Made by a program: the position numbers and the translations under genes. Below, piece by piece: positions 34,647 through 59,746 of a DNA stretch of 64,000 nucleotides. The stretch covers positions 204,352 through 268,351 of the forward strand of contig NZ_REEZ01000006.1 in assembly GCF_003990445.1 (NCBI RefSeq), in the 5' to 3' direction. Within the stretch, counting starts at the first letter, position 1, and the number at the start of each line of letters is the position of its first letter. This stretch comes from Pararhodobacter zhoushanensis (lineage in GTDB: Bacteria; Pseudomonadota; Alphaproteobacteria; Rhodobacterales; Rhodobacteraceae). The notes beneath the pieces are model-generated. The model did no database searches and was not told where the DNA came from. It saw only the letters and a list, made by a program, of their open reading frames with translations.

Positions 34647-35908
34647 CCCCCTCGACCACGCGCCTCTCCAAGCGAAGCATGGCCTTCATTCTGGCCGGCG
34701 GACGCGGCAGCCGGTTGCACGAACTGACCGACCAGCGCGCCAAACCGGCGGTCTATTTCGGCGGCAAGACCCGGATCATCGACTTTGCGCTGTCCAATGC
34801 CTTCAACTCGGGCATCAGCAAGATGGCCATCGCGACGCAGTACAAGGCCCATTCGCTGATCCGCCACTGCCAGCGCGGCTGGAACTTCTTCCGCTCGGAA
34901 CGCAACGAATACCTCGACATCCTGCCCGCCTCGCAGCGCGTGGACGAGCATCACTGGTACGAGGGCACCGCCGATGCCGTCTTTCAGAACACCGACATCG
35001 TCGACAGCTATGACATTGATTACGTGATCATTCTGGCCGGTGACCATATTTATAAGATGGACTACGAGGTCATGCTGTCCGAGCATGCCGAAAGCGGTGC
35101 CGATGTAACCGTCGGCTGTCTGACCGTCCCGCGCGGCGACGCCAGCGCCTTTGGCGTCATGGCCATCGACCACGCCGGTCGCATCACCGATTTCATCGAG
35201 AAACCCGCCGACCCGCCCGGCCTGCCCGATGATCCCGACAGCGCGCTGGTGTCGATGGGGATCTATGTGTTCCGCTGGAAATTCCTGCGCCAGCTGTTGA
35301 TGGACGACGCCGCCGATCCCAACTCGTCGCGCGATTTCGGCAGCGACATCATCCCGACCGTGGTGCGCAACGGCAAGGCGATGGCCCATCGGTTCGAAAG
35401 CAGCTGCGTGCGCCACCGTGACGATGCCCCGTCCTATTGGCGCGATGTCGGCACGCTGGATGCGTTCTGGAAGGCCAATATCGACTTGACGGGCTTTGAC
35501 CCCGATCTGGATCTGTGGGACCGCAACTGGCCGATCTGGACCTATTCCGAAAGCGTCCCGCCCGCCAAGTTCATCCACAACGAGGAAAGCCGCCGGGGTG
35601 TTGCGCTGTCTTCGCTGGTGTCGGGCGGCTGCATCATCTCGGGTACCGAGGTACGCAACTCGCTGCTGTTCACTGGCGTACATTCCAACAGCTGGTCCTC
35701 GCTGACCCATGCGGTCGTGTTGCCCTACGCCACGATCAACCGCCACGCGCGGCTGACCAAGGTGGTGATTGATCGCGGGGTGGTGATCCCCGACGGGCTG
35801 GTGGTGGGCGAAGATCCCGAAGAAGACGCCAAGTGGTTCCGCGTCAGCCCGGGCGGTGTGACGTTGATCACCCAGTCCATGCTGGACCGACGAGAGAGCC
35901 AGCGATGA
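34643..35908 (+). CDS. glgC: glucose-1-phosphate adenylyltransferase
   Basis: A 421-residue ADP-glucose pyrophosphorylase, the committed and allosteric step of glycogen synthesis. The nucleotide-binding loop [20 protein letters not shown] is at residues 12-31, followed by [15 protein letters not shown] and the C-terminal beta-helix. It overlaps glgB upstream and glgA downstream by 4 bp each. The stop is TGA inside the glgA ATG. Confidence 0.96.
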
Positions 35909-37365
35909 GCAACACTGCCGCTTTGCGCACGGTTCTGGCGGTCGCCTCGGAATGCGCGCCGCTGATCAAGACCGGCGGTCTGGCCGATGTGGTTGGCGCC
36001 CTGCCCGGTGCGCTGGCCTCGCAGGGCTGGGCGATCCGCACGCTGCTGCCGGGCTATCGGCGGGTGATGGCAGCGCTGAGCAAGCCGCGCGTGGTGCGCG
36101 ACCTGCCGTCGCTTCTGGGCAGCAAAGCGCGGGTGCTTGCGGCAACGGTTCACGGGCTCGAGATGCTGGTGCTCGATGCGCCGGATCTGTTTGACCGCGA
36201 CGGCACCCCCTATCTGGACGCCAACGGCAATGACTGGCCCGACAACGACCTGCGCTTTGCCGCCCTGTCCCAAGCTGCGGCGCTGATTGCAAAGGACGGG
36301 ATCGGCGGCTGGACGCCCGAGATCGTGCATCTGCACGATTGGCAGGCCGGGCTCACGCCCGTTTACATGAGCGAACTGGGTGCGACCCAACCGACACTTC
36401 TGACCATCCACAACATCGCCTTTCACGGCCTGACCGGGTACAACCGGATGCGCGCTCTGGCGCTGCCGCCGTCGGGTTTTCATCCCGACGGGTTCGAGTA
36501 TTACGGCCATATCTCGGCGCTGAAAGCCGGATTGACCGGGGCTTGGGCAATCACCACCGTCAGCCCGACCTATGCACAGGAACTGACGACCGAGGAATTC
36601 GGTCTGGGGCTTGAAGGGGTGATCCGCGCGCGGGCCGCGCAGATGACCGGCATCCTCAACGGGATCGACACCGATCAATGGACGCCGACCACCGACCCTG
36701 CGATCGTGCCGTTTTCGACGCCGCGCGGGAAAGTTGCCAACACCGTCGCGCTGCGGGCCGAGTTCGGGCTTGCCCCCAGCGACGGGCCGCTGGCGGCGGT
36801 GGTGTCGCGGCTGTCGGACCAGAAGGGGCTGGATCTGCTGCTGGGCGCACTGCCCTCCTTGCTTGACGGCGGAGGCCAGCTGGTTCTGCTCGGCTCGGGC
36901 GACCGGCGGATGGAAAACGACTGGCTCAACGCCGCGGCCGCGCACCCCGGGCAGGTGGCGGTCCGCATCGGCTATGACGAAACCCTCTCGCACCGGATTT
37001 ATGCCGGGGCGGATGCCATTCTGGTGCCCTCGCGGTTCGAGCCCTGCGGGCTGACGCAGATGTACGGGCTGCGCTATGGCGCGGTGCCGGTGGTCGCGCG
37101 AACGGGCGGGCTGGCCGACACGGTGATCAACGCCAATGCCGCCGCCCTTGCCGTGGGCTGCGCCACCGGCATCGTGCATGCGCCCAAATCCATCCCGGCG
37201 CTGGCCCATGCCCTGACGCATCTGTGCCGCTTGTGGCAAGACAGGCCCACCTTCCAACGCCTTCAGCGTAACGCCATGAAACACCCCGTCGGCTGGGAGG
37301 CCAGCGCGCCGCTCTATGCAGCGCTCTATGGCCGACTGGCAGCGGCGCTCCCGGAGTCCTCATGA
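35905..37365 (+). CDS. glgA: glycogen synthase (ADP-glucose)
   Basis: A 486-residue GT5 glycogen synthase with the ADP-glucose-binding [13 protein letters not shown] at residues 24-36 and the C-terminal signature [17 protein letters not shown] with catalytic-region glutamate. It extends alpha-1,4 chains from ADP-glucose made by GlgC. It overlaps glgC and glgX by 4 bp. Start is the ATG at 35905. Confidence 0.95.
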
Positions 37366-39439
37366 ATCTGACCATCGAACGCGGCCGTCATGACCGCATC
37401 GGCGCGACCTTCGACGGTGACGGGGTCAATTTCGCGCTGTTTTCCGAGCATGCAACGGCGGTCGAGCTGTGCCTGTTCTCGCCGGACGGCGTGCGCGAGA
37501 CGCATCGGATGTTCCTGCCCGAGCGCACCGGCTATGTCTGGCATGGCCGGGTGTCGGGCCTGTGTCCGGGTCAGCTCTATGGATATCGTGTCCATGGACC
37601 CTATGCGCCCGAAGAGGGTCATCGCTTCAACCCCAACAAGCTGGTGCTTGACCCTTACGCCAAGCGCCTGACCGGCCATCCGCGCTGGTCGGATGCGCTG
37701 TTTGGCTACAACCCCGGCGCCAAGACGCTGGATCTGACCTATTCAACCCGCGATTCCGCGCGGTTCATGCCCAAATGCGTGGTCGAGGATCCCAGCTTCT
37801 TCTGGGGCAACGACCGACCGCCTGCCACCTCATCCAGTGAGACGGTGGTCTATGAGGCCCATGTAAAGGGGCTGACGCAGCTGTCGGGCGTGAACAATCC
37901 GGGGACGTTTCTGGGCGTTGCCTCGGACCGGATCATCGACCATCTGGTCGATCTTGGCGTCACCGCACTGGAACTTTTGCCGGTGCAGAGCTTTCTCAAC
38001 GACCGCTGGCTGATCGAGAAGAAGCTGACGAATTACTGGGGGTATCAGACACTCGGCTTCTTCGCCCCCGATCCGCGCTATCTGCAGACCGGCCAGATCA
38101 ACGAATTTCAGCATATGGTCGCGCGCCTGCATGCCGCCGGGATCGAGGTCATTCTGGATGTGGTCTACAACCACACCTGCGAAGGCTCGGAACTGGGCCC
38201 GACGCTCAGCTTTCGCGGCATCGACAACCGCAGCTATTACCGGCTGGCCCCCGACCCGCGCCACTACATCAACGACACCGGCTGCGGCAATACGGTGAAC
38301 ATGGAGCACCCGATGGTGCTGCGCATGGTCATGGATTCGCTGCGCTATTGGGTCGAGGTGATGCATGTCGACGGCTTCCGCTTCGACCTTGCCTCGACGC
38401 TGGCGCGCGATGATGCCGGGTTCCAGTCCAACTCGGCCTTCTTCGCCGCGATCCGGCAAGATCCGGTCCTCAACCGCGTCAAACTGATCGCCGAGCCCTG
38501 GGACATCGGCCCCGGCGGCTATCAGCTGGGCGCGTTCCCGCACCCGTTCCACGAATGGAACGACAAGTTCCGCGACGGCGTGCGGCGCTTCTGGCGGCGT
38601 GACCCGCGCCCGGCCCCTGAGCTGGCAGCGCGCATCACCGGATCGGCCATGCAGTTCGACCATTCGGGCCGGGGCGCGACCAGTTCGGTCAACTTCATCG
38701 CCGCCCATGACGGGTTCAACCTGACGGACATGGTCAGCTATAACGACAAGAACAACATCGCGAACGGCGAGGATAACCGCGATGGCCATTCCGAGAATTT
38801 CTCGGACAACATGGGCCATCAGGGGCCGACCGACGACCCGCAAGTGATGCAGGCCCGCGCCCTGCGGCGGCGCAATCTGATGGCGACGCTGCTGCTCAGC
38901 CAGGGCATGCCGATGATCCTGGCGGGCGACGAGATCGGCCATTCGCAACAGGGCAACAACAACGCCTATTGTCAGGACGGCCCGATTTCGTGGCTGAACT
39001 GGGACGACATCGACGCCGATATGCTGGCGTTTACCAAGCGCCTGATCCAGTTCCGCAAGAACCACCCGATCCTGCGCCAGCGGCTGTTTCTGCACTCAAA
39101 GGCGCGCACCACCGATGGCAAGGCCGATGTGTTGTGGTGGCACCCCGAAGGACGGCGCATGACGCCCGAGGACTGGGAAGATCCGGCGCTCAGCTTCGTC
39201 TGCGTCGAGCTGCGCACGGCGTCGGGCACGCCCAGTTACTCGGACGTCGAGGACGCGCTGTTTCTGGTGTTCAACGCCGGGGGCGAGATTGACGTGATGC
39301 TGACCCCCGCGCCCGAGGGCAAGGTCTGGTCGCGCCGCATCAACACCTACGCGCCGCTGATCCCGCCGCAGCGCATCCCCTATGGCAAGCTGAACGTGCC
39401 CGCGCATTCGGTCTCGGCTTTGGTTCTGGAAAACAACGG

Positions 39440-39443
<4 letters not shown>
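37362..39443 (+). CDS. glgX: glycogen debranching enzyme
   Basis: A 693-residue GH13 (isoamylase/GlgX-type) debranching enzyme that cleaves alpha-1,6 branches left by phosphorylase. The nucleophile is D342 (GFRFDLAST), with the acid in LIAEPWDIGPGGY and the third carboxylate in FIAAHDGFNLTD. CBM48-like N-terminal domain. It is coupled to glgA and malQ by 4-bp overlaps. Confidence 0.94.
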
Positions 39444-42903
<3,460 letters not shown>

Positions 42904-43496: not shown

Positions 43497-43811
43497 TTAA
43501 ACCTCGGGCACGCGCAAGATGATGCCATCAAGCGCCGGGGACATTTCCATCTGGCACGACAGGCGCGACTGATCGAGCCGCGGGGCATCAGTGGCGTCGA
43601 GCATTGCGTCCTCGAAATCCGACGCCGCGCCCGCCGCCGCCAGCCATGCCTCATCGACATAGACGTGGCAGGTCGCGCAGCTCATCGTACCGCCGCACTC
43701 GCCGATGATGCCGGGGACGTTGGCGTCAACGGCGGCCTCCATCAGGTGCCGGCCGTCGGCCACGTCTGCGGTGATTTCGCGCCCGTCGGGCAGAATCCAG
43801 GTGGCTTTCAT
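43497..43811 (-). CDS. 2Fe-2S ferredoxin (adrenodoxin/putidaredoxin type)
   Basis: A 104-residue plant/vertebrate-type ferredoxin with cluster ligands C39, C45, C48 and C86 (GECGGTMSCATCH and LSCQMEM). Such ferredoxins pass electrons to class I P450s. It is encoded in the same run as a P450 and a GS-like enzyme; the GS-like gene ends 12 bp upstream of its start. No ferredoxin reductase is present in the window, so a chromosomal one must serve. Start at 43811 (MKATWILPDG). Confidence 0.92.
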   Translation of the reverse strand: MKATWILPDGREITADVADGRHLMEAAVDANVPGIIGECGGTMSCATCHVYVDEAWLAAAGAASDFEDAMLDATDAPRLDQSRLSCQMEMSPALDGIILRVPEV

Positions 43812-43822
43812 GCGGTCTCTCC

Positions 43823-45115
43823 TCACACAAACCAGATTGAGAAATCGCGCGCCTGTTCGGGCGTCATGTCCTTGGTCTTGTCGACCTCGACGCGCTTCAT
43901 ATGCACGTGATGCGCGACATACTCAGGCCCCATCGCCGCGATCATGGGCGCGTCGGCTTCCAGATCATCGAGCGCGGCGCTGAGGGTTTCGGCCACGCCG
44001 TACTCGGCATTCTGGCCCATGAAGCAATCGCCCGTCTCGACCGGCGGCAGGTCATAGCGCCCCTCATAGCCCAGCCGCGCCGCTTGCAGCACGGCGGCGA
44101 CGGCGGCGTAGGGGTTGGCGGCGGCGTCGGCCATGCGGTGTTCGAGCCGGGCTTTCTTGCCGCCCTCGCCCGAGACGCGGCAGGTGACGCCGCGATGATC
44201 CTCGCCCCAGTTGCACCAGAAGCCCGACATCGAGGCAGGTTGCAGGCGGGCGTAGGAATTGACCGACGGCGCGGTCAGCGCGGCCAGCGCCTTGTGGTGC
44301 TTCATCCAGCCTGCGATACAGCCGCGGCCCAGATCGGTCATGCCCTTGATGCCACCCTGCGGCCCGGCGCTGAGGGCGTTGTTGCCCTGTGTGTCGGTGA
44401 AGGACAGGTTGATATGCATACCTGAGCCGCCGCGATCAAACAGCGGTTTTGGCAGGAAGGTCAGGATGATACCCTTTTGGAACGCCACTTCGCGCGCCAG
44501 TTGGCGGAACATCACCGTCTCATCCACCGCCTGCAGCGCCTCATCGAAGCTGAGGGTGAATTCGTATTGCGGCGTGTCGTATTCGGTGGTGACCAGATCG
44601 AGTTTGAAGCCTGCGGCCTCGGCCGCTTCCCAGATCGCGTCGGTGAAGCCGAGCGGATCGTTGAACGGCCCACCGCCATAGACATGGCCACCGGGGAGAT
44701 CATAGGGGGCCAGCGTGCCATCCTCGGCGCGGGTGAAGGCGAAGGCTTCCAGCTCGATCCCGACCTTGGGGGTGAGCCCGTGCTTGGCCCAGTCGGCAAT
44801 CGCGGCCTTGAGCCGATTGCGCCCCAGGATCGGCACCGGCGCGCCATCGCGGTCGGTCATGTCGCCGGTAACCATATGCACGCCCGGTTCCCAGCCCGGA
44901 CGGATGTCGGCGGCGTCCCAGCTAAGAGTCATGTCGGGCAGACCCTCAAGGCAATTGGTGCCCGGCGCGTCGACGATCAGGTCTTTGTCATAATGGACGG
45001 CAAGGCAAGGCTGGGCAAAGCGGGTCGAGCCGGAGCCGATCTTTTCCTGCGGCAGGTATTTCGAGCGCAGGATGGAAAGATGGTCGCACCAGACGGGGCG
45101 CAAACGGTCACGCAT
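43823..45115 (-). CDS. glutamine-synthetase-family ligase (gamma-glutamylamide synthetase-like)
   Basis: A 430-residue member of the glutamine synthetase superfamily: KVGIELEAFAF, TTEYDTPQYEF, GGSGMHINLSF, NSYARLQPAS and the C-terminal LEHRMADAAANPYAAVAAVL, i.e. the metal- and ATP-binding residues. It is shorter than GlnA (about 470) and has no adenylylation tyrosine loop. Related enzymes (PuuA, IpuC, AtdA1) ligate glutamate to an amine other than ammonia. The neighbouring P450, ferredoxin and amidotransferase-like hydrolase favour such a catabolic role over nitrogen assimilation. A GGGAGA site precedes the ATG. Confidence 0.85.
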   Translation of the reverse strand: MRDRLRPVWCDHLSILRSKYLPQEKIGSGSTRFAQPCLAVHYDKDLIVDAPGTNCLEGLPDMTLSWDAADIRPGWEPGVHMVTGDMTDRDGAPVPILGRNRLKAAIADWAKHGLTPKVGIELEAFAFTRAEDGTLAPYDLPGGHVYGGGPFNDPLGFTDAIWEAAEAAGFKLDLVTTEYDTPQYEFTLSFDEALQAVDETVMFRQLAREVAFQKGIILTFLPKPLFDRGGSGMHINLSFTDTQGNNALSAGPQGGIKGMTDLGRGCIAGWMKHHKALAALTAPSVNSYARLQPASMSGFWCNWGEDHRGVTCRVSGEGGKKARLEHRMADAAANPYAAVAAVLQAARLGYEGRYDLPPVETGDCFMGQNAEYGVAETLSAALDDLEADAPMIAAMGPEYVAHHVHMKRVEVDKTKDMTPEQARDFSIWFV

Positions 45116-45153
45116 GAGGGATCTCCCTGTTTCTTATGGTTTTTTTATTGTGG

Positions 45154-46410
45154 TCAGGCGCGGGTGATCCGCACCGGAAGTTCCTTGATACCGCCCACAA
45201 AGTTGGAACGGAGGAATTTTTGCGGCCCCGCCGGTTCAATCGACGTGATCCGCTTGGCCAGTTCCTGAAACAGCACACGCACCTCAAGCCGGGCCAGATG
45301 CATGCCCAGACACAAGTGCGGGCCGCCCTGCCCGAAGCTGAGATGGGGGTTGGGATTGCGCGCAAGGTTCACGCGGAACGGGTCGTCAAAGGCGGTCTCA
45401 TCCCGGTTGCCGCTGACGAACCAGTAGAGCACCTTGTCGCCCGCCTTGATGGTCTTACCGTGCATCTCGTGGTCGCGCGTGGCAGTGCGGCGGAAATAGA
45501 CGGCGGGGGTTGCCCAGCGGATGATCTCGTCGGGCGCGGTGGCCCAGACCTCGCCGGCCTTCATCTGGACCAGCAGTTCGGGCTGGTGCGCCATGGCCTG
45601 AATACCGGCGGCGATGGAGTAGCGGGTGGTATCATTCCCGGCGGCGACGAGCAGGCAGAAGAAGTTGCGAAACTCGGTCTCGGAGATCACGCTGCCATCG
45701 GGGCCGGGTTGCAGGATCAGGTGGAGGATGCCGTTAGTGTCGCCGCGCGCCGCCTTGTCGGCCATCAATTTACGGGCGTATTCATAGAGTTCCGCCCCGG
45801 CGGGCGAGTTGAACGGCATCAGGCGGTAGTCGTCGGTCGTCATCTTGTCGAGCACATGCTCGGTGAAATCGGGGTCGGTGTTGGCAATCAGCGCGTCGCC
45901 CTTTTCCACCAGCCACGGCAGGTCTTCGTCGGGGGTACCCAGAATGCGGCCCAGCATGCGCATCGGCAGCTCGCGGGCGATGCGTTTGGTGGCGTCGAAG
46001 CTGTCGTGTTGCAGGGCGTCGTCGAGGATTTCGTCGCAAAGTTCGCGGATCTGGTCCTCAAACCCGGCAACAACGGGGCGCGAAAAGGCCTTGGCGACCT
46101 TGACGCGGGTCATCGTATGCTCGGGCGCGTCGGTCTCCTGAAAGGTGCGGCGCGCGAGGTATTCCTCATAGGTCTGATCCTCCATGCGGATGCCGCGGGC
46201 CGATGACATCAGATCCGGCTGCCGGTTCAGCGCCAGAATATCGGCGTGGCGGGTGACGTTCCAGAACCCCTGCCCCGCGTCCCAGTCGCTCCAGGCGAGC
46301 GGGTCATCGCGACGCATCCGGGCAAAGGTGTTGTGCGGCACGCCTTGGGCAAAAATGTCATGCGAGGTCAGGTCGGCGTGCCCGTCGTCGGTTGGTGTCC
46401 AGATGGTCAT
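45154..46410 (-). CDS. cytochrome P450
   Basis: A 418-residue soluble bacterial P450. I-helix oxygen-activation motif AAGNDTTR, ExxR in DEIIRWATP, and the heme-binding loop LSFGQGGPHLCLG with the thiolate C367. The one-residue-longer loop (G-G-P-H-x-C) resembles CYP124/CYP125-like and related steroid/terpene or amine hydroxylases. It is the first gene of the minus-strand unit; ligase, ferredoxin and probably the secreted protein follow. Start at 46410 with GGGAGAG upstream. Substrate not determinable from sequence. Confidence 0.94.
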   Translation of the reverse strand: MTIWTPTDDGHADLTSHDIFAQGVPHNTFARMRRDDPLAWSDWDAGQGFWNVTRHADILALNRQPDLMSSARGIRMEDQTYEEYLARRTFQETDAPEHTMTRVKVAKAFSRPVVAGFEDQIRELCDEILDDALQHDSFDATKRIARELPMRMLGRILGTPDEDLPWLVEKGDALIANTDPDFTEHVLDKMTTDDYRLMPFNSPAGAELYEYARKLMADKAARGDTNGILHLILQPGPDGSVISETEFRNFFCLLVAAGNDTTRYSIAAGIQAMAHQPELLVQMKAGEVWATAPDEIIRWATPAVYFRRTATRDHEMHGKTIKAGDKVLYWFVSGNRDETAFDDPFRVNLARNPNPHLSFGQGGPHLCLGMHLARLEVRVLFQELAKRITSIEPAGPQKFLRSNFVGGIKELPVRITRA

Positions 46411-46441
46411 GCGACTCTCCCTTGCGGTCCGTTGCTTGCTA

Positions 46442-46471
46442 TGTATATTATTGGCAATGCAACGTATGCAA
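46442..46471 (-). promoter_or_regulatory. candidate P450 promoter with direct repeats
   Basis: In the 72-bp divergent gap, minus-strand TTGCAT (46466-46471) is followed after 18 bases by TATACA (46442-46447). TTGCAT is repeated directly 9 bases on (46457-46462), which could be a regulator half-site pair. The MarR-family gene nearby is the natural candidate regulator. Confidence 0.45.
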
Positions 46472-46482
46472 ATGGAATTTTC

Positions 46483-47187
46483 ATGCATATCGCCTTTCTT
46501 GACGCCAACACCGACCGCTCTGCCTTTGCTGCCCGCCATGCGAGCGAAGTGGACAAATTCCGTGCCCTTCTGGCCCCTGTCGCGCCGGACTGGCGCTATA
46601 GCGACTTCAAGGTGACCGAGGGCGCTTTGCCCGCGTCACTGAAGGGTTTCGACGGGGTCATCGTTTCGGGAAGCCCGGCTTCGGTCAATGATGCAGAGGA
46701 CTGGGTTCCGGGGCTGATGGCGACGATCCGCAAGGCCGTGGACGCCGGTGTGCCGGTGTTCGGCGCGTGTTTCGGGCATCAGGCGGTGGCCAAGGCGTTG
46801 GGGGGCGTGGTCGCTCACAACCCCGATGGCTGGGTGCTGGGCCGGGTTGAAACGGTGAACCATTCGCCCGCGCCGTGGATGCGCGATGCCCCGGCAACTA
46901 TGGCGCTGAACGCGGCACATAATGAGCAGGTGGTCACGCCGCCGCCGGGCGCAACCGTTCTGGGGGGCACAGCGCAGGTGCCAAATGCACAGCTGGCGAT
47001 CGGAAACACGGTATTCACCACACAATACCACCCTGAAATCACACGGGATTTCATGGCCGACCTTATCACGCATCTAAACGGCGAGGTGCCGGCTCCGGTT
47101 CTGGCCGGCGCGCAGGCCGCCCTGCCGCTTTCGCTGGACGATGCGCTGATGGCCCGCTGGATTGCGGCGTTTTTCAACGCTAACTGA
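46483..47187 (+). CDS. class I glutamine amidotransferase-like hydrolase
   Basis: A 234-residue GATase1-fold enzyme with nucleophile C96 (GACFGHQ) and the His-Glu pair H183/E185 (QYHPE), a complete triad. Stand-alone proteins of this fold include gamma-glutamyl hydrolases such as PuuD and the AtdA2 protein of aniline degradation, which act beside GS-like ligases. It is divergent from the P450 by 72 bp and followed by a MarR regulator. Hydrolysis of a gamma-glutamyl intermediate is inferred from context. Confidence 0.85.
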   Translation: MHIAFLDANTDRSAFAARHASEVDKFRALLAPVAPDWRYSDFKVTEGALPASLKGFDGVIVSGSPASVNDAEDWVPGLMATIRKAVDAGVPVFGACFGHQAVAKALGGVVAHNPDGWVLGRVETVNHSPAPWMRDAPATMALNAAHNEQVVTPPPGATVLGGTAQVPNAQLAIGNTVFTTQYHPEITRDFMADLITHLNGEVPAPVLAGAQAALPLSLDDALMARWIAAFFNAN

Positions 47188-47246
47188 CCGGCGTTAGCCA
47201 TCTGTTAAGGGGGTCCATGCTTATCATCGCTCAGGAGATGATGCGC

Positions 47247-47777
47247 ATGGACACAAATACCTTGGGTGCGCTGGTTTGGCAGCTGTCGACCCGGTGGCGC
47301 AGCGCGGTTGACCGCGCGGTTGCCCCGATGGGCCTGACCCAGGCGCAATACACCGCCCTGAGCACATTGGCAGCGATGCGGACGCGGGGCGAAAGCCCCA
47401 GCCAGCGCGCCCTTGCCGAGCAAATGGGCATATCGCCGATCTTCGCCTCAAAACTGCTGCGCGCGCTGGAAGCTCAAGGGCTCATCCGGCGTGCGGATCA
47501 TCCACAGGACGCCCGCGCTTTTTCGCTGACGCTTTCGCGCACTGGCCAGACCCAACTGGCGCTTGCCCAGGAAGCGGTGCGCGCCCTGGAAGAGACGCTG
47601 ACCGCGCCGGTCGGGGACCCGGGCGGGAACGCAGCCCAAGCCTTGCGGATCATGCTCAAAGCACTGCTGGCCACCCCGATATCGGAAGCGGCGCATCCTG
47701 AAGCCGCCGCTGCGCGGTTTGCGCATCGCCCGACAGACTCGACCGCAAACGCCCCAAGTCCCTTCACCGCCCGTTAA
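47247..47777 (+). CDS. MarR-family transcriptional regulator
   Basis: A 176-residue winged-helix protein: GLTQAQYTALSTLAA, recognition helix SQRALAEQMGISPIFASKLLRALE, wing RRADHPQDARAFSLTLSRTG. The C-terminal tail is rich in alanine and proline. Start chosen at 47247, nine bases after AGGAG; several in-frame ATGs exist just upstream. It probably controls the divergent P450/amidotransferase promoters next to it. Confidence 0.88.
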   Translation: MDTNTLGALVWQLSTRWRSAVDRAVAPMGLTQAQYTALSTLAAMRTRGESPSQRALAEQMGISPIFASKLLRALEAQGLIRRADHPQDARAFSLTLSRTGQTQLALAQEAVRALEETLTAPVGDPGGNAAQALRIMLKALLATPISEAAHPEAAAARFAHRPTDSTANAPSPFTAR

Positions 47778-47832: not shown

Positions 47833-47904
47833 ATGCCCCTGCCCCAAACGCCGGTTCAGGCCCGCGCAATCAACCAAGGACGGCCAGCAGATCCATCGCC
47901 GTAA
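47833..47904 (+). CDS. possible 23-residue ORF or gene-start remnant
   Basis: A strong AAAGGAAA ribosome site precedes an ATG that opens only 23 codons (MPLPQTPVQARAINQGR…) and overlaps the 3' end of the convergent GntR gene by 35 bp. It looks like the start of a gene that was cut off, or a leader peptide. No homologue is recognised. Confidence 0.25.
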   Translation: MPLPQTPVQARAINQGRPADPSP

Positions 47905-48520
47905 CCTGATCGAACTGAACATGGTGACGCATAGCAGCCTCGGCAGCCTCGCTGTCGCGCGCCATAATCAGATCCGCAATAATCCGGTGATCACGGGCCG
48001 AAGCCGCGATCGACCCGGCATAGCGATAGCGCACCCGGTAATAGGCCATCAACTTGCGCGCGTTGGTCTTGATGAGATCCAGCAGGAACGGATTGCCTGC
48101 GGCCTCTGCCACCGTGCCGTGGAAGCGCAGATTGAGCTGATAATACCCATCGGGCTCGGCGTCACCCAGCGTCGCAGAATGCGCCTCGCAGGCCACCGTG
48201 ACGGCCTCAAGCGCTGCGGCACCGCCGGGCGACAAGCGCCGCGCCGCCAGACCCGCCGCCTGTCCTTCAAGCTTGGCGTGTACTTCGAGAATCGCAAGGA
48301 ACTCGGCCAGTGTCGGCTTGAACACCACGGCCCCCTTGCGCGGAAGACGTTTGACCAGCCCGGTCGCCTCGATCTGCATCAAGGCCTCGCGCACCGGGGT
48401 GCGTGACACCCCGAATTGTTGCACCAGCGCGGCTTCTTCGATTTCATCGCCCGGGTTCAACCGGCCTGTGTCGATCCAGTCGAGCAAACTGCGCAATATG
48501 GTTTCGGTCTGGTTGGCCAC
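47870..48520 (-). CDS. GntR-family (FCD) transcriptional regulator
   Basis: A 216-residue FadR-type regulator: N-terminal winged helix with VQQFGVSRTPVREALMQIEATGLVKRLPRKGAVV and an all-helical FCD ligand domain with the metal-site residues (N-L-R-F-H-G, R-D-H-R-I). The GTG start at 48520 is preceded by GAGAG and matches the family length. No target operon is adjacent; the next gene upstream is a tRNA. Confidence 0.88.
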   Translation of the reverse strand: MANQTETILRSLLDWIDTGRLNPGDEIEEAALVQQFGVSRTPVREALMQIEATGLVKRLPRKGAVVFKPTLAEFLAILEVHAKLEGQAAGLAARRLSPGGAAALEAVTVACEAHSATLGDAEPDGYYQLNLRFHGTVAEAAGNPFLLDLIKTNARKLMAYYRVRYRYAGSIAASARDHRIIADLIMARDSEAAEAAMRHHVQFDQVTAMDLLAVLG

Positions 48521-48620
48521 GGCGTCTCTCGGTCTGGGCCCGATCCGGGCTGCCCATCCGTATACACAAGCCCCGCCGCTTTGTGCAACAACGCCACGCA
48601 GCAAGGGCTACCGACCCCTC

Positions 48621-48658: not shown

Positions 48659-48748
48659 GGACAGGTGGCCGAGTGGTCGAAGGCGCACGCCTGGAAAGTG
48701 TGTAGGCGGGGAACCGTCTCCAGGGTTCGAATCCCTGTCTGTCCGCCA
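48659..48748 (+). tRNA. tRNA-Ser (anticodon GGA)
   Basis: A 90-base class II tRNA with acceptor GGACAGG/TCTGTCC, anticodon loop CTGGAAA (anticodon GGA), a long variable arm, T-arm CAGGGTTCGAATCCCTG and encoded CCA. Followed by an intrinsic terminator and by accessory DNA, so it may have served as an integration site. Confidence 0.97.
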
Positions 48749-49135: not shown

Positions 49136-49972
49136 ATGTCAAACAGGGCCTGGACCGATCAAGAGAACGACCTGATCGTCGCGGATTACTTCGCGATGCT
49201 GGCCGACGACATCTCTGCGCGCCGCTACAGCAAGGCCGAGCACCGCCGCGCGCTGCTGCCTCTGCTGAACGACCGGCCCGAGGGGTCCGTCGAGTTCAAG
49301 CACCAGAACATTAGCGCGGTGCTGAAGGGGCTCGGTGAGCACTGGATCCCCGGCTACAAGCCGGCCTTCAATTTTCAGATGACGCTGGTGGATGCCGTGG
49401 CGCGGTGGCTGGCGCTGAACCCAGCCTGGCTCGGGCGGCAACCTGGGCTGCAACCCGCCGCTGGCCTGCGCGAAGCGGCGCAGATCTGGATCGGGCCGCC
49501 GCCGACGCTGTCGAACCAGACGCCCCCGCAGGAGCTGGACCAGATGCTGCACATAGCCCGCAAGTTCGACGTGGCGGGCCGGGACGAGCGCAACCGGGCC
49601 CTCGGCCGCGCGGGCGAGGAGCGCGTGCTTGCGCACGAGCGCGCCGCCTTGCGGACGGCAGGACGTGACGATCTGGCGCGCAAGGTGCAGTGGGTGTCGG
49701 AGGAGGATGGCGATGGTGCTGGCTACGACATCGCCAGCTACGCGCCCGACGGCCGTCCGCGCCTGATCGAGGTGAAGACGACGAACGGCTGGGAACGCAC
49801 GCCCTTCCACATCACCCGCAACGAGCTGGCTGTGGCCGAGGAGCGGCGCTCGGAATGGTCCCTGCTCCGACTTTGGAACTTTGCGCGAGAGCCGAAGGCA
49901 TTCGAGCTGCATCCGCCGCTGGAAGCGCATGTCTCGCTGACCGCGACGTCCTTTCAGGCAAGTTTTCGTTGA
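49136..49972 (+). CDS. DUF3883 domain protein (PD-(D/E)xK nuclease-like)
   Basis: A 278-residue protein. The C-terminal 120 residues contain the DUF3883 pattern: an early glutamate region (LGRAGEERVLAHER), then D198 (GYDIASY) and E212-x-K214 (LIEVKTTNGWERTPF), the catalytic layout of restriction-type nucleases. The N-terminal 110 residues have a SANT/HTH-like start (RAWTDQENDLIVADYFAML). Such proteins sit in defence islands. It faces the remnant of a restriction enzyme and is apparently intact. Target unknown. Confidence 0.8.
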   Translation: MSNRAWTDQENDLIVADYFAMLADDISARRYSKAEHRRALLPLLNDRPEGSVEFKHQNISAVLKGLGEHWIPGYKPAFNFQMTLVDAVARWLALNPAWLGRQPGLQPAAGLREAAQIWIGPPPTLSNQTPPQELDQMLHIARKFDVAGRDERNRALGRAGEERVLAHERAALRTAGRDDLARKVQWVSEEDGDGAGYDIASYAPDGRPRLIEVKTTNGWERTPFHITRNELAVAEERRSEWSLLRLWNFAREPKAFELHPPLEAHVSLTATSFQASFR

Positions 49973-50607: not shown

Positions 50608-50720
50608 TTCGTTGACACGCGGTCTGCCGGTGGGTCAGCCTTGCAATCAGGGCATTGCGACGTACTGCCCGCACGCAACCGGCAAGCCGCAAGAATCAGA
50701 CCCAACAGGAGAACCCGGCA

Positions 50721-52289
50721 ATGAACGCCTTTCACGCAAGACTCATGAGCAGCGTCGCTGCGCTTGGCCTTTTGGTCGGCGCGGCCTCGGCTGAAACCAT
50801 CCGCTGGGGCGGCTCGGCGGACCTGAACTCGCTCGATCCCTACTCGTATGGATCGACCTTCACGCTGTCCTTTCTGAACCATATCTACGAAGGGCTGGTA
50901 CGCTATGACGCCGATCTGCAGATCGAACCGGCGCTGGCCGAAAGCTGGGAGGTCGTGTCCGATTCCGTCTGGCGGTTCCATCTGCGTCAGGGCGTGACCT
51001 TCCACAACGGTGCCACCTTCACCGCCGAGGACGTGCTGGCCTCGCTGAACCGGGTGAGCCATGAGACTTCGCCGCTGCGGGGCAACCTGCCAGCGTATCA
51101 ATCGGCGGAAGTCATTGATGACTATACGATCGATATCCACCTGAATGGCGCGTATCCGCTGCTGCTCAATGACCTGACCAACATCTTCATCTTTGATGCC
51201 GACTGGCTGCACGACAACAACAGCGAGCTGCCGACCGACGTGGCCGCCGGGGTCGAGGGTTATACGACCTTCAACGCCAATGGCACCGGCCCGTTCATCA
51301 TTGACGAGCGCGTGCCCGATACCCGCACCTCGATGGTGGTGAACCCCGACTGGTGGGATGAGCCCGAGCACAACGTGACGCGGATCGAGTTCACGCCGAT
51401 CACCTCGGCGGCGACCCGGGTTGCGGCGCTGCTGTCGGGCGAGATCGACTTTGTCGAAGGCGCGCCGGTGCAGGATCTGCCGCGTTTGCAGGCCGCCCCG
51501 AATGTCAACGTGATCGAGGGCAACGCCTTGCGCACGATCATGTTCGGCTTCAACCGCCGCGAGACCCTGAACGACGGGCGCGAGAACCCGTTCAACGACC
51601 TGCGCCTGCGGCAGGCGATCGCCCATGCGATCGACATGAACCTGATCCGCGACCGGATCATGCGCGGTGCCTCGCGCAACGCGGGCACGCTGGTTGCCCC
51701 GCAGATCCCCGGCTATTCGGCCGAGCTGGACGAGCAGATCGCCTATGATCCCGATCTGGCGCGCCAGCTGGTGAGCGAGGCCGGTGCCGAAGGTCTGGCG
51801 TTCCAGCTGACCTGTTCCTACGAGCGCTGGGTGAACGAGGAAGAGCTGTGCTCGGCCGTGATTTCGATGCTGACCCGCGTTGGTCTGGCCCCGTCGCTGG
51901 ACATCGGGCCCTGGGCCGTGCAAGCGCCCCGGATGTCGGGCGGTCAGGCTGACATGTTCATCTTTGGCTGGGCGAACGAGCCGATGCTGGACGCCTATTC
52001 GCTGCTGGTGCAGGTGGTGCGGACGCGTGAAGGCACGGCGGGCGTGTTCAACTGGGGGGCGTGGAGCTATCCGGCCTGGGATGCGCTGATCGACGCGGCT
52101 GCGGTCGAGCTGGATCGCGACACCCGCCTTGGCTATGAGACGCAGGTTCTGGCCGGTGCGCGCGAAGAGATGCTCTTTGTGCCGGTGCACCAGCAGCCGA
52201 TGGCCTGGGCGGTCTCGGACCGGGTGGAATCGGTCGTGCAACAGGCCGACAACAAGCCGCGTCACTGGCTGACCCGCATGGCTGACTGA
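50721..52289 (+). CDS. ABC transporter substrate-binding protein (SBP_bac_5, peptide/opine type)
   Basis: A 522-residue periplasmic binding protein with a signal peptide (cleavage after ASA, residue 24). It has the family features DLNSLDPYSYGST, NHIYEGLVRYD, PALAESWEV and FHLRQGVTFHNG. It delivers ligand to the two permeases encoded next. Members bind oligopeptides, opines, nickel chelates or other small nitrogen compounds; enzymes in this operon point to an amide or heterocycle. Start at 50721 with AGGAGA eight bases before. Confidence 0.93.
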   Translation: MNAFHARLMSSVAALGLLVGAASAETIRWGGSADLNSLDPYSYGSTFTLSFLNHIYEGLVRYDADLQIEPALAESWEVVSDSVWRFHLRQGVTFHNGATFTAEDVLASLNRVSHETSPLRGNLPAYQSAEVIDDYTIDIHLNGAYPLLLNDLTNIFIFDADWLHDNNSELPTDVAAGVEGYTTFNANGTGPFIIDERVPDTRTSMVVNPDWWDEPEHNVTRIEFTPITSAATRVAALLSGEIDFVEGAPVQDLPRLQAAPNVNVIEGNALRTIMFGFNRRETLNDGRENPFNDLRLRQAIAHAIDMNLIRDRIMRGASRNAGTLVAPQIPGYSAELDEQIAYDPDLARQLVSEAGAEGLAFQLTCSYERWVNEEELCSAVISMLTRVGLAPSLDIGPWAVQAPRMSGGQADMFIFGWANEPMLDAYSLLVQVVRTREGTAGVFNWGAWSYPAWDALIDAAAVELDRDTRLGYETQVLAGAREEMLFVPVHQQPMAWAVSDRVESVVQQADNKPRHWLTRMAD

Positions 52290-52368
52290 TCGCCCGGCCG
52301 GGCTGCCCGAGGGGGTGGCCCGGCCTTTCGCCTTGCTCCCACCCTTCGCCTTGCGAACGGAGACCCTA

Positions 52369-53340
52369 ATGATTGTCTTTCTCATCAAGCGCCTGTCGAA
52401 TGCCGCGCTGGTCATGCTGGCGGTTGCGCTGATGGCCTTCATGATCTTTCGCTTTGCCGGTGATCCGGTCGAACTGATGGTGAACGAACAGACCACCCAG
52501 GAGCAGCGTCAGGAATTGCGCGAGCGGCTGGGGATTGATCAGCCCGTCCTGATGCAGTTCGCGCGCTTTGTGGGCAATGCGGTGCAGGGCGATTTCGGTA
52601 TCTCGTACCGCAATCAGGAATCCGTCATGTCGCTGATCGCCGAGCGTTTCCCGGCGACCTTCGAGCTGGTCATTCTGGCGACGATCCTGTCGCTGGTGGT
52701 GGGGGTGCCGCTGGGGGTCATCACCGCGATCTATCGCGGGCGGTGGTTTTCTGAAGCGGTGCAGTTTGCGTCGATCATCGGCGTCTCGCTGCCCAGTTTC
52801 GTCATCGGCATCCTCTTGATCCTCGGCTTCTCGGTCTCGCTGGGCTGGCTGCCTGCCTTCGGGCGTGGAGAGGTGGTGCAGTTTGGTTGGTGGTCCACCG
52901 GCCTGTTGACCCATTCAGGCCGCATGGCGCTGATCCTGCCGACGGTGGCGCTGTCGCTTTACCAGATCACGCTGGTCATGCGGCTGGTCCGGGCCGAGAT
53001 GCTGGAGACCCTGCGCTCGGATTTCGTGAAATTCGCCCGCGCGCGCGGTGTGCCGGCGTGGCGCATTCATTACCGCCACGCGCTCAGAAACTGCCTGATG
53101 CCGGTCGTGACGATGACCGCAATGAACATTGGCGCGCTGATCGCCTTTGCGCTGGTGACCGAGACGGTCTTTCAGTGGCCGGGCATGGGTCTGCTGTTCA
53201 TTCAGGCGATTACCTTCGTCGATATTCCCGTGATGGCGGCCTATCTGGTCATCGTTTCGTTCATCTTCGTGACGCTGAACACGCTGGTCGATATCACCTA
53301 TGCGCTGATCGACCCGCGCCTTCGCGACGCCACCACCTGA
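52369..53340 (+). CDS. ABC transporter permease (DppB type)
   Basis: A 323-residue inner-membrane permease with six helices, the DppB-type N-terminal pattern RLGIDQPVLMQFARFVG and the ATPase-contact EAA loop (DFVKFARARGVPAWRIHYRH). It forms the pore with the next gene product. CGGAGA precedes the ATG; 79 bp separate it from the binding-protein gene. Confidence 0.93.
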   Translation: MIVFLIKRLSNAALVMLAVALMAFMIFRFAGDPVELMVNEQTTQEQRQELRERLGIDQPVLMQFARFVGNAVQGDFGISYRNQESVMSLIAERFPATFELVILATILSLVVGVPLGVITAIYRGRWFSEAVQFASIIGVSLPSFVIGILLILGFSVSLGWLPAFGRGEVVQFGWWSTGLLTHSGRMALILPTVALSLYQITLVMRLVRAEMLETLRSDFVKFARARGVPAWRIHYRHALRNCLMPVVTMTAMNIGALIAFALVTETVFQWPGMGLLFIQAITFVDIPVMAAYLVIVSFIFVTLNTLVDITYALIDPRLRDATT

Positions 53341-53350
53341 GGGAAGCGCG

Positions 53351-54277
53351 ATGAGCCTTGCTGAACCCAATCTTCTCACCCGCATCCGCCGCTCGGATCT
53401 CTGGTGGTCCTTTACCCAGCACAAGGCGGCGATGGCGGCGGCATTGCTGCTGGCGCTGCTGATCCTGTCGGCGGCCTTTGCGCCGTGGATCACGCCGCAG
53501 AACCCCTATGATCCGGCGCAGCTGGATCTGTGGAACGCCGAGCTGCCCCCGATCTGGATGGAGCGCGGGCAATGGCCCTATCTGCTGGGCACCGACAATC
53601 AGGGCCGCGATATCCTGTCGGCCATTCTCTATGGCTCGCGCAGTTCGATCATCATCGGCATCGGCTCGGTGGCGCTGTCGCTGGTGATCGGCATCTCGCT
53701 GGGGCTGATGGCCGGGTTCTTCGGCGGCATCACCGATGCGGTGCTGATGCGGGTCGGCGATGTGCTTCTGTCCGTGCCGACCATCCTGATCGCGATGCTG
53801 GTCTCGGCAATGGCCCGCGCCTCCTTGCCGCCGGGGCTGCGCGAGGTCGGAGCGGGTGCGGTGCTGATCCTGGCGATCACCCTGTCGGCCTGGGTGCAAT
53901 ATGCGCGCACCGTGCGCGCGCAGACCTCGGTCGAGCGGCGCAAGGAATACGTGCAGGCGGCGCGACTGCTGAAGGTTCCGGCGCGGCGGATCATGGTCAA
54001 GCATATCCTGCCCAACACGATGACGCCCATTCTGGTCGCCGCCACGCTGAATTTCGGCATGGCCATTCTGACCGAGGCGACGCTCAGCTTTCTGGGCATC
54101 GGCATGCCGCCCAGCCAGCCCAGCCTTGGCACGCTGATCCGCTTCGGCAACCAGTACCTGTTCTCGGGCATGTGGTGGATGGTGATCTTTCCGGTGCTGC
54201 AACTGTGCCTGCTGGTGGTGTCGGTAAACCTGCTGGGTGACTGGCTTCGTGACGCGCTCAACCCGAAACTGAGGTAA
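53351..54277 (+). CDS. ABC transporter permease (DppC type)
   Basis: A 308-residue permease with N-terminal cytoplasmic helix, LGTDNQGRDILSAILYGSR (typical DppC), six helices and the EAA loop YVQAARLLKVPARRIMVKH. Partner of the DppB-type permease; 10 bp downstream of it. The amidohydrolase genes follow directly (5 bp gap). Confidence 0.93.
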   Translation: MSLAEPNLLTRIRRSDLWWSFTQHKAAMAAALLLALLILSAAFAPWITPQNPYDPAQLDLWNAELPPIWMERGQWPYLLGTDNQGRDILSAILYGSRSSIIIGIGSVALSLVIGISLGLMAGFFGGITDAVLMRVGDVLLSVPTILIAMLVSAMARASLPPGLREVGAGAVLILAITLSAWVQYARTVRAQTSVERRKEYVQAARLLKVPARRIMVKHILPNTMTPILVAATLNFGMAILTEATLSFLGIGMPPSQPSLGTLIRFGNQYLFSGMWWMVIFPVLQLCLLVVSVNLLGDWLRDALNPKLR

Positions 54278-54282
54278 TTTCC

Positions 54283-55476
54283 GTGACTGATCTTCTGCTC
54301 AAGAACATCCGCCCGATGGGCCGCGAAACCGCTGACATCCTGATCCGCGACGGCAAGATTGCCCGGATCGGCGCGGGTCTGGACGCGCCCGGCGTCGCGG
54401 TCGAGGATGGCGGCAATGCGCTGGTGATCCCCGGACTGGTCGAGGCGCATACCCATCTGGACAAGACCACCTGGGGCATGCCCTGGTACGCCGGTCGCAA
54501 GGGCGGTGTGCTGCAAGACCTGATCGACAATGAGCGCAACGAGCGTGTGCCGCTGGGTCTGGACGTCCACCGCCAGTCGATGCGCCACGCCATCGCGCTG
54601 ATTGCCAATGGCACCACGCATATCCGCACGCATGTCGATATCGACACCGACCACGGGCTGAGCCTGCTGGAAGGCGTGTTGCAGACCCGCGAAGCGCTGG
54701 CGGGGCTGATCGACATCCAGATCGTCGCCTTTCCGCAATCGGGGCTGATGGTGCGGCCCGGCACGCTGGACTTGCTCGACGCGGCGATGGCGGCGGGCGC
54801 GGATATTGTCGGCGGGCTGGACCCGTCGTCGATGGACCGTGACCCCAAGGGCCAGCTGGATGCGATCTTTGCGCTGGCGCAGAAGCATGACGCGCCGATT
54901 GACATCCACCTGCACGAACCCGGCGAGCTGGGGGCGTTCACCATGGAGCTGATCCTCGAGCGCACGCAGGCGCTGGGGATGCAGGGCCGCGTCGGCGTCA
55001 GCCATGCCTTTCATCTGGCGATGGTGCCCCCTGCCCGCATCGAGGCGCTGATGGAACGCATCGCGGCGCTGGACGTGTCGATCTATTCCACCGGGCACCC
55101 TTCGGCCAATGTGCCGTCGCTCAAGGCGATGCGTGCGGCGGGGATCCGGGTCGGCATCGGCTGCGACGGGATCCGCGATACCTGGGGTCCGTGGGGCGAG
55201 CCGGACATGATGCACCGCGCGCGGATTGTCGGCATGAAGAACGGGTTCCGGCGGGATGAGGAACTGGAATTGTTGCTCGACACCGCCTCGGGCGCCGGGG
55301 CGGCGTCGATCGGGGTTGCGGGGCATGCCGTGACGGTGGGTGCCGCCGCAGACCTGACGCTGCTGGCGGGCGAGACGCTGGCGCATGCGGTCGTGCTGCA
55401 AGAGCCGCGCCCGCTGGTTATCAAGGGCGGCGCAGTGGTGGCGCGCGCGGGCAACGCCGTGATCGAGGCCCCATGA
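54283..55476 (+). CDS. amidohydrolase, cytosine-deaminase-like
   Basis: A 397-residue metal-dependent amidohydrolase with H56-x-H58-L-D60-K61 (VEAHTHLDKT), a later metal-ligand HLHEPGELGAF, SHAFHL and the catalytic Asp in GCDGIRDTWGPWGE, all as in cytosine deaminase-type enzymes. It hydrolyses C-N bonds in pyrimidines, triazines or similar compounds. It is embedded in the transporter operon (GTG start, 5 bp after dppC-type gene; 4-bp overlap with the next amidohydrolase), so the imported compound is the likely substrate. Confidence 0.88.
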   Translation: MTDLLLKNIRPMGRETADILIRDGKIARIGAGLDAPGVAVEDGGNALVIPGLVEAHTHLDKTTWGMPWYAGRKGGVLQDLIDNERNERVPLGLDVHRQSMRHAIALIANGTTHIRTHVDIDTDHGLSLLEGVLQTREALAGLIDIQIVAFPQSGLMVRPGTLDLLDAAMAAGADIVGGLDPSSMDRDPKGQLDAIFALAQKHDAPIDIHLHEPGELGAFTMELILERTQALGMQGRVGVSHAFHLAMVPPARIEALMERIAALDVSIYSTGHPSANVPSLKAMRAAGIRVGIGCDGIRDTWGPWGEPDMMHRARIVGMKNGFRRDEELELLLDTASGAGAASIGVAGHAVTVGAAADLTLLAGETLAHAVVLQEPRPLVIKGGAVVARAGNAVIEAP

Positions 55477-56960: not shown

Positions 56961-57927
56961 TCCCGTCCTTGAAGTGCGCGATCTGCGCGTGCAATTCCCC
57001 GGCCGCCACGGCACCGTGACCGCGCTGGATGGCGTTTCGCTGCATCTGAACGCCGGTGAGATCCTGGGCGTTGTTGGTGAAAGCGGCGCGGGCAAGTCGA
57101 TGACCGGGCTGGCCGTTCAAGGCCTGCTGGAACCGCCGGGCCACATCGCCGGGGGCGAGGTCTGGCTGAACGGGCGGCGCATTGACCAGTTGAGCAACCG
57201 GCAGATGGAAAAGATCCGCGGGCGCGAGATCGGGGCAATTTTTCAAGACCCGCTGACCTCGCTCAACCCGCTGTTCAGCGTCGGCAGCCAGCTTGAGGAA
57301 ACCATCCGCCTGCATCTGGACATGACCCGCGCCGAGGCCCGCGCGCGCGCGATTGATCTGCTGCGGCAGGTCGGCATTCCGGGACCGAAAGAGCGCATCG
57401 ACCACTACCCGCACCAGTTCTCGGGCGGGATGCGGCAGCGGGTGGTGATCGCGCTGGCGCTGGCCGGTGAGCCGAAACTGATCATCGCCGACGAGCCGAC
57501 CACCGCACTGGATGTGTCGATTCAGGCGCAGATCATCGCGCTGCTGCGCCGGCTCTGCGACGATCTGGGCACCTCGGTGATGCTGGTCACGCATGATCTG
57601 GGCGTCATCGCCGAGGCCGCCGACCGCATCGCGGTGATGTACGCCGGGCGCATGGTCGAGATCGGGCCGGTGCGCGAGGTGCTGCGCCAGCCGACCCATC
57701 CCTATACGCGCGGGCTGATGGATTCGATCCCCGCGCTGGGGCGGCGGGTCGCGCATCTGACGCAAATCGACGGCTCGATGCCCCGGCTCGACGCCATCCC
57801 CGACGGCTGCGCCTTCAACCCGCGCTGCGCGCATGTCGGTCCGCGCTGTCGGCGCGCCCGGCCCGCCCTGATGCCCACAGGAGCCGGGCAGAACGCCTGC
57901 TGGCTCACCCATGGAGGTGTTGCATGA
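56953..57927 (+). CDS. ABC transporter ATP-binding protein (DppD type)
   Basis: A 324-residue ATPase with Walker A GESGAGKS (near residue 41), Q-loop QDPLTSLNP, signature [11 protein letters not shown] and Walker [13 protein letters not shown]. The C-terminal oligopeptide-transporter extension carries cysteines ([14 protein letters not shown]) that bind a 4Fe-4S cluster in some DppD proteins. Overlaps the amidohydrolase by 8 bp and the next ATPase by 4 bp. Confidence 0.94.
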
Positions 57928-58937: not shown

Positions 58938-58963
58938 GCGCGCCGCCTACCCCTGCCAGAACG

Positions 58964-58994
58964 AAAAACCGGCGCCTGTCTGGCGCCGGTTTTT
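58964..58994. terminator. bidirectional terminator
   Basis: A 13-bp stem (58964-58976 with 58982-58994), 5-base loop, with five A on one side and five T on the other. It can end both the plus-strand transporter operon and the minus-strand racemase unit. Confidence 0.9.
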
Positions 58995-59020
58995 ACGTTC
59001 GCTTGGATGGTTCTTGCGGC

Positions 59021-59743: not shown

Positions 59744-59746
59744 GGC

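Follow-up and report, generated by a model that had tools for sequence, protein, structure and literature searches.

A conserved P450, glutamate-amine ligase and GATase-fold hydrolase as a candidate upper pathway for tyramine-like amines in Pararhodobacter zhoushanensis and its relatives

What might a cytochrome P450 oxidize when its gene lies among genes for glutamate-amide chemistry? The question is raised by Pararhodobacter zhoushanensis, in a 64,000-nucleotide stretch of contig NZ_REEZ01000006.1 (positions 204,352 to 268,351; hereafter the window, with coordinates counted from its first letter). Here, a minus-strand run comprises the P450 (45154..46410), a glutamine synthetase (GS)-like glutamate-amine ligase (43823..45115) and a [2Fe-2S] ferredoxin (43497..43811). 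A class I GATase-fold hydrolase (46483..47187) and a MarR-family regulator (47217..47777) are encoded on the opposite strand, and a GntR/FCD regulator gene comes next (47870..48604, minus strand). Our tentative reading, to which we give just short of an even chance, is that this module encodes the upper steps in the breakdown of an arylethylamine, with tyramine the likeliest, and that the product would pass into hydroxyphenylacetate (hpa) catabolism. The tyramine would possibly be made from tyrosine by a decarboxylase that is linked to the module in relatives. The ligase would then be a gamma-glutamyl-arylethylamide synthetase, the P450 a gamma-glutamyl amide hydroxylase and the GATase-fold protein a gamma-glutamyl amide hydrolase.

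Comparison with relatives defines the conserved unit as the P450, the GS-like ligase, a divergent GATase, usually the ferredoxin, and a GntR/FCD regulator. Neighborhoods were compared in 80 named loci, the best 80 of 546 confirmed P450 matches in species genomes; since these were chosen by P450 similarity, gene counts in them are conditional on a close P450. The closest P450 matches among the 80 are from Pararhodobacter. Within 2.5 kb of the P450 lie the ligase in all 80 loci, the GATase in 79 (every one divergent), the ferredoxin in 69 and GntR in 65, and over the whole of the fetched loci GntR is found in 66 and MarR in 4. Mean pairwise identity across the loci is 76% for the P450, 70% for the ligase, 65% for GntR, 63% for the ferredoxin and 51% for the GATase. 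A search of 149 genomes of the order found ligase homologues (E up to 1e-90) in 18, the P. zhoushanensis genome included. Both P450 and GATase adjoin the ligase in 17 of these, and genome G061 is the one exception. Among those 17 module genomes, GntR accompanies the module in 15, ferredoxin in 11 and MarR in 2 (the window being counted for GntR and MarR); in one (L022), the GATase lies downstream on the same strand. The P450 is present in 8 of 337 genomes sampled across the class and 4 of 299 across the phylum, P. zhoushanensis being included in both. Eight further P450 loci have the ligase beside the P450 in seven cases, the contig of the eighth ending just past the P450, and a GATase in four. 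An earlier note made from the sequence had drawn a five-gene module of P450, ferredoxin, ligase, GATase and MarR, and had offered a lack of co-occurrence in relatives as one observation that would refute it. All five genes were confirmed where it had placed them, with the families it had named, by a Pfam scan of the open reading frames (ORFs), and four of the five do recur together; MarR does not, GntR being conserved instead, and is a local addition outside the conserved module.

The Pfam matches are Gln-synt_C for the ligase (1.1e-70), p450 for the P450 (1e-15), Fer2 for the ferredoxin (2.6e-10), GATase PF00117 (5e-18) with Peptidase_C26 (4.3e-5) for the hydrolase, MarR_2 for the MarR protein (1.2e-10), and FCD (5.8e-26) and GntR (9e-18) for the conserved regulator. 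Catalytic residues are almost invariant: the heme cysteine, ExxR motif and I-helix threonine of the P450 are kept in 80/80 aligned relatives, the Cys-His-Glu triad of the GATase in 79/79, and ferredoxin cysteines 1 to 3 in 69/69, with cysteine 4 in 68 of these. The ferredoxin has a C-x5-C-x2-C pattern and is presumably of the putidaredoxin/adrenodoxin-like type. The best sequence matches of the P450 in the Protein Data Bank (PDB) are ancestral CYP125 constructs (2.7e-101), followed by CYP125 and CYP126 (about 1e-67), a likeness that says little about substrate; that of the GATase is gamma-glutamyl peptidase 1 (3.4e-15). The ligase falls below the NCBIfam cut-offs of all five GS-type models that it matches, which include GlnA, type III GS and PuuA. 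Against the ammonia-assimilating GlnA and type III GS models it scores 158.7 of 429.15 and 191.9 of 469.6 bits, respectively, and against the PuuA-type model (GGputSyn) 190 of 650 bits. The ligase residues that were checked at what we take to be the ATP and glutamate sites are retained. At the flap position, where a glutamate presumably corresponds to E327 of enterobacterial GS and has a role in ammonia use, the ligase has methionine; methionine or leucine stands there in 79/79 aligned relatives, and the GlnA-like copy of the same genome (L139) has glutamate. Seven of the eight other GS homologues of this genome likewise lack the flap glutamate (read from tblastn frames). According to PMC11335346, no conversion of ammonium had been reported for any of the GS-like organic amine ligases that it groups.

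The neighbors of the module in relatives point toward aromatic amines. At identity thresholds that we set, the families seen most often across the 80 loci include a class III aminotransferase (42), IclR (40), TctC (37), aldehyde dehydrogenase (33), TctA (32), HpaI (21) and a group II DOPA-type decarboxylase (20). The one decarboxylase examined has DOPA decarboxylase 7xin as its best PDB match (8.8e-110) and resembles aromatic-amino-acid decarboxylases; as a family, the decarboxylase is accompanied by HpaI in 17 of its 20 loci, hmgA-type loci among them. Lower pathways for arylacetates flank 32 of the 80 loci, and 29 of the 58 that exceed 21 kb: homogentisate genes in 19, hpa genes in 9 and paaA in 5. 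Representative HpaD (both types), HpaH, HpaI, HpaR, HmgA, fumarylacetoacetase and PaaA proteins score over their NCBIfam cut-offs, and representative HpaF- and HpaG-like proteins score under theirs. An hpa cluster lies about 4 to 15 kb from the P450 in G752, G754 and G067 (L149, L150 and L153), three genomes selected because HpaD shares a contig with the module. In G061, where no P450 adjoins the ligase (L037), the decarboxylase is embedded in an hpa run (L152, 1943-14275; tblastn) of aminotransferase, IclR, aldehyde dehydrogenase, UPF0261, hpaR, hpaF, a second aldehyde dehydrogenase, hpaD, decarboxylase, and hpaG-, hpaH- and hpaI-like genes. The UPF0261 (Tm-1-like) protein (L019, 19394-20626, and its homologues) also recurs in 20 of the 80 loci.

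The association with hpa extends to whole genomes. HpaD of either type, over cut-off, is found in 45 of the 149 genomes of the order: in 17/17 with the module compared to 28/132 without it (one-sided Fisher p = 1.2e-10, a value that overstates independence, as the 17 genomes are related and fall in 13 genera). In a 23-genome module set that overlaps this sample, HpaD exceeds the cut-off in 21, the exceptions being G751 and G184, the cluster of the latter having a more distant LigB relative in its place. A Pyridoxal_deC gene is present in 22 of the 23, this being a broad family that also occurs in 8 of 14 control genomes. An HpaB-family hydroxylase gene is found in only 3 of the 23. Pararhodobacter aggregans and Ruegeria pomeroyi SZCCDBG043 each carry the module together with a decarboxylase-family gene and HpaD. 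Because a catechol is required before HpaD can act and HpaB is mostly absent, the P450 becomes a candidate for the hydroxylase. In P. zhoushanensis itself, hpaR, hpaF-like, hpaE, hpaD, hpaG-like and hpaH genes are clustered on a contig other than that of the module (C3), with HpaD, HpaE, HpaH and HpaR over cut-off, the HpaG-like protein below it and the HpaF-like gene recognized by tblastn only. On a further contig, a decarboxylase gene is paired with an HpaI-like gene just under cut-off (C56), and hmgA is present (C34). With a score of 326.9 against 480.2, the genome's own HpaB-family gene falls short of both HpaB cut-offs; it adjoins an amidase gene. No classical aromatic hydroxylase was found among 10 ORFs scanned next to the hpa cluster, nine of which have a Pfam family.

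The simplest scheme that would unite the linked genes runs through ligation, P450 hydroxylation, deglutamylation, transamination, oxidation and the hpa pathway. In this scheme, the GS-like ligase would couple glutamate to the amine using ATP, and the P450, fed by the ferredoxin, would hydroxylate the ring at position 3, converting gamma-glutamyl-tyramide to gamma-glutamyl-dopamide. The GATase-fold hydrolase could then release dopamine and glutamate, after which the class III aminotransferase and aldehyde dehydrogenase would yield 3,4-dihydroxyphenylacetate for breakdown by HpaD, E, F, G, H and I. The GntR regulator would control the module. What the sequences show directly is the families to which the genes belong, the conservation of their catalytic residues, the conserved linkage of the core genes and, across genomes, the association with HpaD and the decarboxylase; the exact amine, the position hydroxylated, the order of steps and the regulation are inferred. 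The module is real and conserved, and it is probably an undescribed upper pathway for tyramine-like amines that is built on known enzyme logic. The amine-degradation module with a P450 as oxidant that the earlier note had suggested is supported, less its MarR gene, by the conserved linkage and by the aromatic-amine and hydroxyphenylacetate genes near the module; the likely substrate class, an arylethylamine feeding homoprotocatechuate, goes beyond that suggestion.

Several observations weigh against the tyramine scheme, beginning with the relatedness of the module genomes noted above. Only two of the 17 module genomes, G067 and G124, carry HpaD within 20 kb of the module; the remaining 15, P. 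zhoushanensis among them, have it on a different contig or at a distance of 90 kb or more. The distance of the aminotransferase correlates poorly with that of the P450 (r = 0.12, compared to 0.51 to 0.63 for the P450 with other core genes). HpaB is as scarce in HpaD genomes that lack the module (2/28) as in those that carry it (2/17), which means that a missing HpaB does not point to the P450 in particular, and the idea that the P450 displaced HpaBC, tried through an order-wide search for HpaB, was left unsupported. Two ORFs of the acyl-CoA dehydrogenase family lie about 5 kb from the hpa cluster of P. zhoushanensis; the same fold is also found in another type of 4-hydroxyphenylacetate hydroxylase. 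Finally, some loci adjoin homogentisate or phenylacetyl-CoA genes, pathways that need no 3,4-diol.

This last point fits a rather unlikely alternative that we nevertheless take seriously: with the same architecture, the substrate would be 2-phenylethylamine or a different arylethylamine and the P450 would introduce a different first hydroxyl (e.g., meta or ortho), so that products would lead to homogentisate or phenylacetyl-CoA in addition to homoprotocatechuate. Homogentisate genes are near more of the loci than hpa genes, paaA genes are near some, and a flavin adenine dinucleotide (FAD) monooxygenase of the PRK08132 subfamily is found in 18 of the 80 loci, 16 of them with hmgA. However, the pairing of the decarboxylase with HpaI, an aldolase of the hpa pathway, holds even in hmgA-type loci, the decarboxylase examined is of the DOPA type, and HpaD is found in every one of the 17 module genomes. 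We consider an oxidative deaminase improbable; in this reading, the P450 would hydroxylate the carbon beside the amide nitrogen to give an arylacetaldehyde and glutamine, and the GATase would be a glutaminase. GATases of this fold are generally known to cleave glutamine amides, and such a route would require no aminotransferase, none being found in 38 of the 80 loci (22 of the 80 are no longer than 21 kb). Yet the aminotransferase is present in the other 42, and the catechol needed by HpaD would go unexplained wherever no other hydroxylase is found.

Two further proposals would change the substrate altogether. An O- or N-demethylase acting on a methylated arylethylamine (e.g., 3-methoxytyramine), again as its gamma-glutamyl amide, would likewise supply a catechol to HpaD, and bacterial P450 demethylases served by ferredoxins are known. 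Against it, no formaldehyde-linked family appears among the identified conserved neighbors, no search having been aimed at one and many neighbors being unassigned, and we give this proposal scarcely any probability. Very improbable, too, is an Ipu-type pathway that degrades isopropylamine or other small aliphatic amines and came to lie within aromatic-catabolism islands by chance; the kinds of genes match the isopropylamine pathway of Arthrobacter aurescens TC1 (PMC6776027), but the module is repeatedly associated with arylacetate pathways and an aromatic-amino-acid decarboxylase.

In one branch, no GATase was found nearby. In genus g108 (L038-L040; families scanned in L039 only), P450, ligase, ferredoxin and reductase genes are clustered with a LigB dioxygenase and an aldehyde dehydrogenase that match the HpaD and HpaE models best, respectively, each scoring below cut-off, as well as FAA-hydrolase-family, acetoacetate-decarboxylase-family and decarboxylase genes. 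Related gene sets occur in Novosphingobium EMRT-2 and Streptomyces canus. No GATase was found in the 17 to 25 kb fetched for g108, Novosphingobium EMRT-2 and S. canus, which counts against the tyramine scheme. These variant loci are the reason for a bolder reading, which we regard as a long shot: a new catecholamine-type degradation in which the gamma-glutamyl amide protects the amine while the P450 makes the catechol. By deduced chemistry, this branch might then cleave the ring with glutamate still attached, ending at gamma-glutamyl-4-aminobutanal, an intermediate of the Puu pathway.

More distant assemblies of similar genes were set apart from the module. Loci in Sagittula stellata and Novosphingobium humi, with P450s 38 to 39% and ligases 24 to 26% identical, were treated as a separate assembly; in both, ligase, GATase and P450 genes form one run (L046, 7920-11227; L047, about 8201-11224), and the Sagittula locus lies near a gene annotated as salicylyl-CoA 5-hydroxylase. 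For two GATase matches on Pseudomonas plasmids, the stretches examined carry neither an annotated ligase nor an annotated P450.

Relatives also guide the gene models in the window. Translation of the P450 probably starts at 46410 (418 amino acids), a start conserved in relatives, within a listed ORF of 45154-46539. The GATase start is probably at 46483 (234 amino acids), again from relatives, in a listed ORF of 46246-47187 whose first 79 or so residues are antisense to the P450 gene or within the intergenic gap. Apparent conservation of GATase residues before about position 80 was rejected as an artifact of the antisense P450; without them, the GATase count is still 79/80. For the ferredoxin, listed as ORF 43497-43826 from a GTG, relatives suggest an inner ATG start at 43811. 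Between the divergent P450 and GATase genes, a weak AT-rich promoter-like element was picked out by eye (46439..46469, minus strand), and a similar TTTACATA...AATATACAT block was seen by eye in several of the six upstream regions compared. A consensus scanner did not flag the element, and promoter-like sites were no more common than in shuffled sequence. A tally of palindromes gave no clean operator for GntR, with some half-site and spacer pairs exceeding simple base shuffles.

The rest of the window holds other features. Beside the module, genes at 35833-42903 (plus strand) appear by eye to be of glycogen/maltodextrin type (debranching enzyme, amylomaltase, phosphoglucomutase), and ORFs of similar lengths flank the module in L050, L054 and L055. 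On its other side, a NOV_C-domain protein (49136-49972, plus strand) matches the PADLOC candidate defense family PDC-S36 (7.8e-130) and lies about 0.4 kb from a tRNA-Ser gene (48659-48748). Oligopeptide-type ABC transporter genes and two amidohydrolase-like ORFs, read by eye from translations, occupy 50655-60355, with an Asp/Glu-racemase-like ORF among them (59021-59743, minus strand, also by eye); the region looks like a separate catabolic operon. At 61415-63982 (minus strand), the translation reads as a large protein whose internal repeats are nearly identical.

If the tyramine scheme is correct, many Rhodobacterales would be able to channel tyramine-like biogenic amines into central metabolism, and their hpa pathways would gain a candidate for the hydroxylase step ahead of them. 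P450 chemistry on gamma-glutamyl amides would extend from an aliphatic amine to aromatic ones, and a P450, ligase and GATase set that is only generically annotated in the Ruegeria sp. TM1040 record would gain a testable function.

How, then, does the module compare to known systems? The hpa pathway would be its lower pathway, and the P450 may supply the hydroxyl for which HpaB-family enzymes are so seldom present. The Puu putrescine pathway works through gamma-glutamyl amides, a logic shared by our proposal, and the linked aldehyde dehydrogenase examined has PuuC as its best NCBIfam match, below cut-off; in contrast, the ligase here is far under the PuuA-type cut-off, and we know of no P450 in the Puu pathway. 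Closer in its kinds of genes is the Ipu pathway, reportedly first described in Pseudomonas sp. KIE171 in a 2002 paper. For isopropylamine in A. aurescens TC1, PMC6776027 gives a pathway of predicted proteins: the ligase IpuC, a P450 system of several components, and an amidotransferase whose step is postulated. The earlier note knew of no described system with exactly this set and must be corrected on that point, as PMC6776027 already names a P450 as the oxidant of the Ipu pathway. The enzyme logic is therefore known and the aromatic context differs: judged by kinds of genes alone, a GS-like ligase, P450 and amidotransferase are linked in both, with an aliphatic amine as substrate there and a hydroxyphenylacetate-catabolism context here. 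In the titles and abstract openings returned by searches of an open-access library, no P450 pathway for gamma-glutamylated aromatic amines was found. The Pip and Mor loci resemble ours in using P450s on nitrogen compounds, with GS genes numbered beside the pipA and bioI P450 genes in Gulosibacter (PMC9477822); they differ in acting on cyclic secondary amines (piperidine and morpholine), and the passages seen of that paper describe no gamma-glutamyl step. For aromatic amines, the AtdA aniline system and the NpaA1 system for 1-naphthylamine (PMC11335346) likewise combine a GS-like aromatic amine ligase, a GAT-like enzyme and an oxygenase. According to that paper, the GAT-like enzyme of the aniline system hydrolyzes cytotoxic gamma-glutamylanilide and does not release the oxidized product. 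No Rieske protein was found among the 8 proteins scanned between 43082 and 49972 of the window. Where the AtdA and NpaA1 systems rely on a Rieske dioxygenase (PMC11335346), the module of P. zhoushanensis carries a P450.

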